Positions 34,160 to 36,771 of a stretch of 36,771 nt of DNA are shown one piece after another. A program made the translations under genes and the position numbers. The notes under the pieces were generated by a model. It worked only from the letters and a program-made list of their open reading frames with translations. It made no database searches and was not told the DNA's origin. Source of the DNA: Desulfobacteraceae bacterium (GTDB lineage Bacteria; Desulfobacterota; DSM-4660; Desulfatiglandales; Desulfatiglandaceae); the NCBI GenBank assembly GCA_030613055.1, contig JAUWMR010000042.1, positions 1 to 36,771 of the forward strand. The letters are read 5' to 3'. Position 1 is the stretch's first letter, and the number at the start of each line of letters is the position of its first letter.

Positions 34160-34174
34160 TGACTTTGTTAATAA

Positions 34175-34429
34175 TTCACCGCAGAGTCGCGGAGGACGCA
34201 GAGATGAATGAATTTTCCTTTGCCGCTGAGAAAACGGCAAAGGGAAAACAGTCAGCAGCTTCGCTACGATATGAGCTTTGAGTTGCTATTGTTCAAGTTG
34301 ATAACTCAGTATAAATTACAGGTTTTGCAAGGACTCTACCCCCCGGGCTTTATTCTTTTTGCTTTCCGCCCTCTCAGCGGAAAGCAAAAAAGCAAGTAGT
34401 GCTCAGCGCTCTCAGCGTCTCTGCGGTAA
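34175..34429. repeat. Inverted-repeat element B (about 255 bp) between the FlxC- and FlxB-like genes
   Basis: The outer arms, 34175-34203 and 34402-34429, match at about 23 of 28 positions and are built of CGCAGAG/CGCGGAG-like 8- to 9-mers. Inside are two clean hairpins: CCTTTGCCG/CGGCAAAGG (34217-34225 with 34235-34243), and a 14-bp TTTTTGCTTTCCGC pairing with GCGGAAAGCAAAAA (34356-34369 with 34377-34390). There is no convincing gene: a 63-codon ORF at 34208-34399 consists of hairpin sequence. It fills most of the 295-nt gap. The architecture parallels elements A and C. Confidence 0.7.
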
Positions 34430-34454
34430 ATAAACAATTAAGAAGGTATATTCT

Positions 34455-35501
34455 ATGACACTCAAGCTATTCGCAAAGGAACAATGGTTAACGACCTTAG
34501 AAGGCCTTAAGGAGTCTTATAAGATATTTGTACCGGTCAGGGATGGTGATTTTCACACCTTCATGCCCTTAGATGAAGGCAAAAAGCCTGATTTTGATTA
34601 TCCAAACACGCGTCTTTCGCCCAAATCCTTAATATACCCCCAATCTGAGCGCATATTTGAATACAGTCTTGATGAGAGTGCTCCTGATGCCCATATCTTA
34701 AAGGAAACAGAAAAGGACTATTCACCAAGGGCGATTGTAGGGATCAGGCCGTGTGATGCCCATGCATTTAAGATTGTGGAGCTTAATTTTGACAGTCCTG
34801 AATATAAAGACCCGTGGTGGGTACAGAGGTATGAATCTACTGTCCTGATTGGTCTTGGGTGTAATGATCCTGTATCCACCTGTTTTTGCACCTCTGTTGG
34901 AGGTGGTCCCTTTGACGAGGATGGTCTCGATGTCATTTTATATGACTTAGGAGAGAGTTATCTTGCTAAGGGTCTGACGGACAAGGGTGAGGATTTTCTT
35001 GCAAAGGCCAAAGGTAGGACCAAGGCAGATGATGCTTCCATTAAACGTGCTGAGGAGTTGGCCAAATCCGCATCTGACAAGATTTCTGTGAATGTTCCCG
35101 TTGACAGGCTCAAAGATAAGGTAATAAACGAGCTTTTTGCTGCCTCGTTCTGGGAGGAAGTAGCCTTTTCGTGCATCAATTGCGGCACGTGCACCTATCT
35201 GTGTCCCACCTGCTGGTGTTTTGACATACAGGATGAGGTAATAGGAAAAGAGGGTGACCGGATCAAAAACTGGGACTCGTGCATGTTTCCGCTGTTTACG
35301 CTTCACGGTTCAGGACATAATCCCAGGGACAACAAGTTTCAGCGGGTACGCCAGAGGTTCATGCACAAGCTGAAGTATTATGTAGACAAATATGACAACG
35401 GTGTTCAGTGCTCCGGGTGCGGCCGGTGTGTGAGATATTGTCCCGTGAACATAGATATCAGGGAAGTATGTAAGTTGATGAACAGCTACAGAAGTGACTA
35501 A
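34455..35501 (+). CDS. Two-cluster iron-sulfur oxidoreductase subunit (FlxB/AsrA/HydB-like)
   Basis: 348 residues. The N-terminal domain has AIVGIRPCDAHAFKIVELNF and the cysteine group IGLGCNDPVSTCFCTSVGGG, typical of the sulfhydrogenase-beta/anaerobic sulfite reductase A family. Two [4Fe-4S] motifs follow: CINCGTCTYLCPTC and CSGCGRCVRYCPVNID. It probably relays electrons from the flavin NAD(P)H subunit encoded at the end of the window. The last codons (Ser-Asp-stop) lie inside the left arm of the inverted-repeat element that follows, so the insertion has redefined the C-terminus. Confidence 0.85.
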   Translation: MTLKLFAKEQWLTTLEGLKESYKIFVPVRDGDFHTFMPLDEGKKPDFDYPNTRLSPKSLIYPQSERIFEYSLDESAPDAHILKETEKDYSPRAIVGIRPCDAHAFKIVELNFDSPEYKDPWWVQRYESTVLIGLGCNDPVSTCFCTSVGGGPFDEDGLDVILYDLGESYLAKGLTDKGEDFLAKAKGRTKADDASIKRAEELAKSASDKISVNVPVDRLKDKVINELFAASFWEEVAFSCINCGTCTYLCPTCWCFDIQDEVIGKEGDRIKNWDSCMFPLFTLHGSGHNPRDNKFQRVRQRFMHKLKYYVDKYDNGVQCSGCGRCVRYCPVNIDIREVCKLMNSYRSD

Positions 35502-35926
35502 AGTGCACTAAAGTGACTAAAGTGAACTAAAGTTGTGGATAATAAGGAATTTTCAAAAGAACTCGAAAAGCGAACTAAAAGATTCTCAGCAAGAATAATT
35601 CGGTTGTCAACAAAATTACCCAATACGCCCGAAGGCAGGGTGGTGCGGAATCAAATCACTAAGGCGGGAACTTCTATTGGAGCAAATTACCGGGAAGCAA
35701 ATCGTGCCAGAAGCAAAGCAGATTTCAGGAGCAAGATTAAGATATGTGAAGGTGAAGCCAGTGAAACACAATATTGGTTGGAAGTAATTGTAGAGGTAAA
35801 TTGGCTCCCTTGGAAAAAAATAAAGGCTGAATATGAAGAATGCAGTGAATTACTTGCTATTTTTACGTCTATTGGAAAAGACCTTTAACTTTAGTCACTT
35901 CAAACTTTAGTCACTTTAGCTCACTT
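35492..35926. mobile_element. IVS-like inverted-repeat element C carrying an S23 ORF
   Basis: About 435 bp. The left arm (35492-35534) is a tandem of AGTGACTAA/AGTGCACTAA-type 9- to 10-mers; the right arm (35887-35926) is its imperfect reverse complement (ACTTTAGTCACTT, ACTTTAGTCACTTTAG). Between them is one ORF of the four-helix-bundle/S23 family, the protein encoded by intervening sequences of 23S rRNA in several bacteria. The layout, stem arms with an S23 ORF in the loop, is that of an IVS, but here it sits in a protein-coding operon. Confidence 0.7.
35535..35888 (+). CDS. Four-helix-bundle protein, S23/IVS family
   Basis: 117 residues from GTG at 35535; no strong ribosome site, since the start sits at the end of the repeat arm. 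SKELEKRTKRFSARIIRLST, then VVRNQITKAGTSIGANYREA, NRARSKADFRSKIKICEGEA and SETQYWLEVIVE are the conserved helices of the TIGR02436 type. The family has no proven biochemical role; it may bind the RNA stem of its own element. Full length, no frameshift. It separates two genes that belong to one enzyme complex, so it is an insertion, not a subunit. Confidence 0.88.
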   Translation: MDNKEFSKELEKRTKRFSARIIRLSTKLPNTPEGRVVRNQITKAGTSIGANYREANRARSKADFRSKIKICEGEASETQYWLEVIVEVNWLPWKKIKAEYEECSELLAIFTSIGKDL

Positions 35927-35947: not shown

Positions 35948-36771
35948 TTGGAAAATCCGTATTTACCCTATCCGGTTCGTATAGATGATATTATTGTTGA
36001 GACGGAAGACAGGAATCTCAAGACCTTCAGGTTTGTCTTTTTGAATCCGGAAGATGAAAAGAGATTTTCTTACACCCCGGGTCAGTTTGCAGAGCTGTCC
36101 ATAGCCGGACAGGGAGAGATTCCCATTGGTATTGCGTCATCTCCTACTGAGAAGGGGTTTGTGACCTTTACGGTAAACAAGACCGGTGTTGTGACCACCC
36201 ATCTTCACAACATGAAGGAAGGGGATATCATGGGTATCAGGGGGCCTTTAGGCAACTGGTATCCGTGGGATGAGATGGAAGGCAAAAACGTGGTCATTAT
36301 AGGCGGTGGTTTTGCCTTTACCACATTAAGATCGAGTATCATCTATATGCTTGAGCCTGACAATCGTCCTAAGTTCAAGGACATTACCGTGGTATATGGT
36401 GCCAGAAGTCCCGGGCTGTTGCTTTACCGTGATGAGTTAGCCGAGTGGGAAAAAAGAGATGATATCAACATGCATATCACGGTGGATGCCACGGATGATC
36501 CTGACTGGAAATACAATGTAGGGTTTGTGCCCACTATTACGGAACAGAAGATCACCAGCTCTGAAAATGCCATTGCCATTGTGTGCGGCCCGCCTATTAT
36601 GATCAAGTTTACACAGCCAGTCCTGGAAAAATTAGGCTTCCCTCCCGACAGGATCATACTTTCCCTTGAGATGCGCATGAAGTGTGCTATCGGTATCTGT
36701 GGCAGGTGTAATATCGGCGATCAGTATGTCTGCAAGGACGGTCCCGTCTTCTCCCTGGCAAAATTGAAAAA
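35948..36771 (+). CDS. FAD/NAD(P)-binding oxidoreductase (FlxA/AsrB/HydG-like), cut by window edge
   Basis: 274 codons to the edge, from a TTG at 35948 with GAGGAG about 9 nt upstream. PYPVRIDDIIVETEDRN opens a ferredoxin-reductase-like FAD barrel (YTPGQFAEL, then IPIGIASSP, a variant of the RxYS flavin motif), followed by the NAD(P)-binding domain (VVIIGGGFAFTTLRSSIIYM, VVYGARSPGLLLYRDEL, AIVCGPPIMIKF). The last visible part, MKCAIGICGRCNIGDQYVC, binds a [2Fe-2S] cluster as in dihydroorotate dehydrogenase electron-transfer subunits. It would oxidise NAD(P)H and feed the FlxB/FlxC-like subunits and then MvhD-HdrA. The next codon(s) are outside the window. Confidence 0.88.
   Translation, partial: MENPYLPYPVRIDDIIVETEDRNLKTFRFVFLNPEDEKRFSYTPGQFAELSIAGQGEIPIGIASSPTEKGFVTFTVNKTGVVTTHLHNMKEGDIMGIRGPLGNWYPWDEMEGKNVVIIGGGFAFTTLRSSIIYMLEPDNRPKFKDITVVYGARSPGLLLYRDELAEWEKRDDINMHITVDATDDPDWKYNVGFVPTITEQKITSSENAIAIVCGPPIMIKFTQPVLEKLGFPPDRIILSLEMRMKCAIGICGRCNIGDQYVCKDGPVFSLAKLK

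Follow-up and report, generated by a model that had tools for sequence, protein, structure and literature searches.

A probable mobile intercistronic RNA-hairpin element with an S23 gene between FlxB-like and FlxA-like genes, and its relatives with tandem-unit arms at other gene junctions

In this study, we analyzed an S23 gene and its inverted arms lying between a FlxB-like and a FlxA-like gene, and our analyses suggested, with a probability of roughly 0.6, that they form a mobile sense-strand intercistronic RNA-hairpin element, which is kin to the 23S rRNA IVSs, has arms like orphan heptamer repeats and belongs to a widespread class of small elements in operon junctions. The element was met in a stretch of 36,771 nucleotides from a Desulfobacteraceae bacterium (GCA_030613055.1, contig JAUWMR010000042.1), hereafter the window. 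We document here its anatomy, its dispersal, its sense orientation, the recurrent use of junctions and the co-inheritance of arm unit and S23 protein; processing of the putative stem in the mRNA and tuning of the two subunits at FlxB-FlxA, as the initial annotation had proposed, are plausible. The case described there is a single example from a class that is very large, and the larger finding would be that sense-strand S23 stem-loops with tandem-unit arms form a pan-bacterial, intercistronic class.

The 3' end of the window is a row of co-directional electron-transfer genes (Table 1). The two genes beside the element matched sulfhydrogenase and AsrA/AsrB models in a profile search, with scores below the cut-offs, and FlxB/FlxA-like appears a fair label for them. 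Profile matches, fold and arm complementarity confirmed that an S23-family ORF stands between inverted arms: AAGTGACTAAAGTGCACTAAAGTGACTAAAGTGAACTAAAGTT flanks it on the left and ACTTTAGTCACTTCAAACTTTAGTCACTTTAGCTCACTT on the right, and one 9/10-bp unit, arrayed in opposite directions, makes up both arms, which are complementary over most of their length. Specifically, positions 35501-35523 pair with 35904-35926 over 23 nt at 91% complementarity, and further pairings join 35511-35526 with 35885-35900 and 35491-35504 with 35888-35901. The arms are paired in the predicted fold of the element strand (z -2.4), and none of 100 shuffled sequences was as stable. The FlxB-like ORF terminates at the TAA at 35499-35501, within the left arm, so that the arms do provide the stop codon of the upstream gene, as had been claimed; in most relatives its C-terminus reads ...MNNY and stop, or similar, about three residues earlier than here. 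The element is an insertion, as initially supposed, because many relatives have both genes with a spacer of only 19-60 nt between them. S23 is its sole ORF, and a transposase is not encoded. The second insert in the row has arms (34163-34203 and 34402-34442) that are 73% complementary over 41 nt, and is of the same kind as the S23 element only by its plan.

Table 1. Positions of the element, its neighboring genes and a second insert in the window.
Feature	Position	Strand	Remarks
Second inverted-repeat insert, without S23	34163..34442		GCAGAG-type unit; fills the preceding gap in the same gene row
FlxB-like 4Fe-4S protein gene, upstream	34455..35501	+	Left arm supplies its last codons and stop
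Left arm	35492..35534	+	Tandem copies of the 9/10-bp unit, CTAAAGTG and 1-2 further nt; includes the TAA of the upstream gene
S23 / 23S_rRNA_IVP gene, four-helix-bundle protein	35535..35888	+	GTG start, 117 aa
Right arm	35888..35926	+	Left-arm unit inverted, ACTTTAGTCACTT...ACTTTAGTCACTTTAGCTCACTT
FlxA-like FAD/NAD-binding oxidoreductase gene, downstream	35948..36771	+	TTG start; continues past the contig end

The S23 ORF matched the Pfam family 23S_rRNA_IVP (PF05635; E 1.3e-20) and TIGR02436, with scores of 74 bits (curated cut-off 33.8) and 91 bits (cut-off 24), respectively. The predicted structure is a confident four-helix bundle (pLDDT 97.4), whose best structure matches were the S23 structures 2rld (E 8.5e-6, TM 0.84-0.90) and 2gsc, followed more weakly by the Avd structures 4dwl and 8ub7 (TM ~0.65). 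No relatives of the window S23 were found in the viral contigs searched. At conserved junctions, pN of S23 was 0.1-0.2 against a pS of 0.5-0.8; the protein is therefore kept, and by these ratios S23 is under purifying selection there. The arms of the elements at these junctions diverge in sequence yet remain complementary, and the two arms of one element pair better with each other than with arms exchanged among elements of the same junction (Wilcoxon p 1e-5).

S23 genes are numerous in the order, with 24 matches in the own genome and some in 51 of 61 genomes; none of 14 well-known control genomes had any. Each of the 124 S23 loci with enough flank was scored by the best inverted repeat that its upstream flank forms with its downstream one. 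The median arm score was 16.5, against 7.5 in 232 random windows, whose maximum of 11.5 was exceeded by 100 of the 124 loci. Under a stricter control, in which flanks were mixed between different S23 loci, 81% exceeded the 95th percentile. These arms are tandem arrays, with a best period of 7 bp in 52 of 77 cases, 8 in 13 and 9 in 7, and their unit varies by S23 subfamily (AGTGACR, GGTAYTR, AGTARGC, GGATTCAAGG, TTAGCNR and others). S23 proteins at least 70% identical across genomes shared arm 6-mers at 0.49 in the same orientation versus 0.001 in the opposite one, and dissimilar S23 proteins across genomes have no arm unit in common; judged by this pattern, arm unit and S23 protein are co-inherited. 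When 84,980 species' genomes were scanned with a 7-row alignment of one S23 subclade as the query, 80 S23 loci from more than ten phyla were returned as a wide sample. Maribacter, Mucilaginibacter and Flavobacterium genomes are among those hit in the analysis. Tandem-unit arms were present at 62 of 78, the period was 7 in 53 of 58 measured, often with TCAGCNN or TCAGTTN as the unit, and the tandem pattern was enriched in several genomes, Hydrocoleum having 607 matches versus 158 for the reversed pattern.

We compared the FlxB-FlxA junction in 44 genomes. S23 is not conserved at this place across the clade, since S23 with CTAAAGTG arms was present in only three of them (G000, and G039 and G046 of another family). 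The empty site that the initial annotation had suggested looking for does exist, as a short spacer of less than 45 nt in about 13 of the 44. In about 12, the junction holds S23-less tandem-unit repeats of several families, including CTAAAGTG arms in G015, G034 and G054 and other tandem-unit families in G001, G009, G011, G018, G020, G023, G026, G048 and G056. One gap filled repeatedly by different families would reflect either a site preference or an insertion-tolerant gap. Between G000 and G039, synonymous divergence was 0.61 for S23, 0.85 for FlxB and 0.84 for FlxA, which suggests that S23 reached the junction later than the flanking genes, with the codon bias of a short gene as a caveat. Strict vertical conservation at FlxB-FlxA is unlikely, given this lower divergence and the many relatives, the majority, that have no S23 there.

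Other S23 loci share the orientation. In the order, the upstream neighbor is co-directional in 61 of 64 called cases (61:3) and the downstream neighbor in 65 of 72 (65:7), an excess with p 2e-5 and 1e-3, respectively, even when a baseline as generous as 75% is assumed; in the wide sample the ratios were 46:7 and 47:9, which is marginal against the same baseline. Several junctions, whose genes were named from the recognizable sequence of the flanking ORFs rather than by family search, are occupied repeatedly. Ten genomes from two families have an S23 at lexA|dinB, and five have one at gmd|fcl; in four genomes it stands between an acyl-CoA synthetase gene and livH, and in three within what is probably a type IV pilus operon. 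One of the ten lexA|dinB copies shares only 30-40% identity with the remaining nine and has different arms, and two congeners of its host genome have the common S23 type; at gmd|fcl, one of the five carries a foreign S23. A published gene order of F. columnare, in which a four helix bundle protein stands uncommented between guanylate kinase and nicotinate-nucleotide adenylyltransferase (PMC5524665), fits the operon-junction pattern. Taken together, the sense orientation and the kept complementarity of the arms suggest that the S23 elements act as RNA, and selection on an RNA stem would explain both; recombination between arms could also keep them complementary, and an S23 gene without its own promoter could also produce the sense bias. 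Two S23 elements (L123, G003 C3 near 719137; L129, G024 C237 near 45315) lie within a DNA methylase gene, whose frame is open across both arms and the entire S23 gene, the latter using another frame, a two-frame reading; a second, S23-less repeat stem in this gene seems to be read in frame.

The search of the genome for other copies of the arms, which had been advised, was productive, as the CTAAAGTG unit recurs at dozens of loci. When two mismatches at most were allowed, CTAAAGTG-NN-CTAAAGTG had 71 matches in the own genome versus 4 for the reversed pattern. Dozens of these are inverted pairs, or arrays standing alone, mostly with a short non-coding loop, and an S23 lies inside CTAAAGTG arms at only two of them, the window copy and a truncated copy at the end of contig C78. 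Across the order, the unit is present in 34 of 61 genomes (own genome included) and missing from many others. As a separate observation, many S23-less elements of the own genome (L060, L061, L062, L064, L080, L091 and others) were seen at CTAAAGTG loci; many share one non-coding loop, GTGGTACGCCTTCGGCGTGCTATT ... AGCAGAATTCATT, and a second repeat, TCCCGCCTTGGCGGGA, is sometimes nested within an arm.

In the GGATTCAAGG subfamily of the own genome, five copies have one common internal S23 deletion, and their own S23 cannot be what moved them; four of the five stand at contig ends, as expected of recent repeats. Mobility, claimed in the initial annotation, has good support for the family as a whole. 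That the element is self-contained, as also claimed, is doubtful, because S23 is missing from most arm copies and elements whose S23 is broken have multiplied, so that something acts in trans. As a side observation, the outer ends of this subfamily read GGATCATCTCCAAATTGG... and ...AATTGGAGAAGAACC, with S23 genes deleted in several copies; six own-genome copies (L155, L160, L161, L165, L169 and L171) have extra outer ends with AT-rich flanks adjoining.

We propose that the element would be a sense stem-loop, with arms made of short tandem-unit arrays and a loop that holds the S23 gene, or is non-coding in derived copies. The arms would pair in the transcript, as we infer for the living cell. 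S23 would be made from its gene in the loop and, as its relation to Avd, a protein of retroelement RNPs, suggests, is likely to bind the stem of its own element, each repeated unit being a repeated putative binding site. By analogy with 23S rRNA IVSs, RNase III may cut the stem, which would separate the two messages. The elements would reach new junctions, and some may be kept long; they would be tolerated because they follow a stop codon and precede the next ribosome-binding site. A broader version of this reading is tentative, and we give it somewhat less than even odds: S23 elements would be a pan-bacterial mobile class acting at the RNA level, with the 23S rRNA IVS as a special case and many orphan short tandem repeats, such as TAACTGA, the cyanobacterial heptamers and CTAAAGTG, as S23-less remains, in which S23 recognizes a co-evolving tandem-unit stem, insertion is targeted between cistrons, and cut or paired stems re-divide operon messages.

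Several other explanations were weighed against the RNA hairpin. The element could be plain selfish DNA, whose arms are DNA ends or cruciforms for a transposase acting in trans (for example, Y1/RAYT) and whose S23 is a passenger or cofactor, with no RNA role at all. The dispersal of S23-less copies and the spread in trans of broken-S23 copies agree with this, as does the correlation between the numbers of S23 and Y1_Tnp per genome (rho 0.52), Y1 transposases being common. However, all Y1 loci that we examined (20, including five of the own genome) are flanked by REP-type inverted repeats and not by tandem-unit arms, no clear target-site duplication was seen in the flanks read, where the exact ends of the elements are uncertain, and a sense-strand bias is unexpected for DNA transposition unless S23 expression is selected. 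We therefore regard the selfish-DNA account as unlikely; as for Y1/RAYT mobilization in particular, the correlation in number is present, but the ends of the Y1 genes differ from the S23 arms, and this candidate was rejected. It is still less probable that S23 and its arms are a domesticated regulator, that is, a conserved autoregulated switch in operon mRNAs, with the dispersed arms as its sites in other mRNAs. Such a role would suit the purifying selection on S23 at lexA|dinB over two families and the proposal that heptamers before start codons are sites of post-transcriptional regulators (PMC4679880), but presence is patchy even inside one genus, the host operons have no evident common function, different S23 subfamilies replace one another in one junction, and most relatives have no S23 at FlxB-FlxA.

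Movement by a resident reverse transcriptase (RT), with S23 as an Avd-like RNA-binding partner, would accord with both the fold kinship to Avd and the sense-strand bias. Against it, S23 number correlates only weakly with RT number (rho 0.26), and an RT match is absent from 11 of the 22 genomes rich in the CTAAAGTG repeat, several of these genomes being incomplete; in the own genome, RT matches lie on contigs C73 and C49, and none on C20, the contig of the element. Dependence on a reverse transcriptase was rejected on these two grounds, and we consider the retro-mobile account very improbable. Chance or an assembly artefact might be suspected in an assembly of 97 contigs with a window that stops at a contig end; the profile and fold matches, the control comparisons and the presence of the same junction element in two genomes of another family leave it a negligible chance.

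Among known systems, the 23S rRNA IVSs of Leptospira and Coxiella are like the window element in their length of about 430 nt, their complementary arms and an S23-family ORF in the loop. They lie in rRNA, whereas the element is placed between two protein genes and its arms are tandem-unit arrays recurring at dozens of loci. An rRNA-gene location was also rejected for its relatives, as an Rfam search of 20 related S23 loci gave no match and no 23S similarity appeared in the S23 loci examined then. The Coxiella IVS has 428 nt and a 28-bp stem, and RNase III cuts it in vitro; its S23 protein is thought by the authors not to be made, and its function was left open (PMC4990558), in contrast to the S23 of the present class with its signs of purifying selection. 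Similarly, REP/BIME sequences with RAYT (Y1) and MITEs are dispersed short inverted repeats, trans-mobilized and mostly intergenic; unlike in REP/RAYT, the arms flank none of the Y1 genes examined, and the coding member of the element is not a transposase. Avd of diversity-generating retroelements has the same four-helix-bundle fold as S23, with low sequence identity, and differs in that no reverse transcriptase lies on the contig of S23.

Cyanobacterial STRRs are orphan heptamer repeats, tandem 7-bp units between genes. Heptamer repeats and S23 elements alike consist of tandem 7-bp units between genes, often before a start codon; the window arms differ in their 9/10-bp unit, most other S23 elements having 7. 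The TAACTGA repeats, reported from Beggiatoaceae, cyanobacteria and Bacteroidetes, are mostly located directly before start codons; their description is mainly that of direct repeats, names no protein partner and leaves S23 unmentioned (PMC4679880). Several S23 elements have the reverse complement of TAACTGA, TCAGTTA, as their left-arm unit, so that the right arm, preceding the next gene, reads TAACTGA and matches the published position. Our literature search, in which subscription journals were thinly covered, found no paper linking S23 proteins to tandem-unit arms or heptamer repeats. S23 proteins have been without a function since the 23S rRNA IVSs were described, and the author of the heptamer study found no transfer mechanism, the repeats having had no evident mechanism of spread so far (PMC4679880); a link between the two gives each a testable partner. 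The same link suggests that a large class of elements has been overlooked, which lie in sense within operons, use the same junctions again and again, and could split or tune messages there.

In addition, two IVS-like features were seen in 23S rRNA genes of the own genome. At C81:16840-17496 (L361), the gene has an insert of about 300 nt, bounded by the inverted repeat CCGGCACTCAACTCTTCC...GGAAGAGTTGAGTGCCGG and encoding a GIY-YIG-like protein (MYYVYILLNDGKTYTGYTDDLKRRM...), that is, an IVS-like insert with an endonuclease-like ORF instead of S23. On contig C78, at about 295-1107 (L362), a 23S rRNA stretch carries three TTAGCTA heptamers (AGCTATTAGCTATTAGCTATTGGCC) roughly at helix 45, a known IVS site, which may be a remnant of a heptamer-armed IVS.
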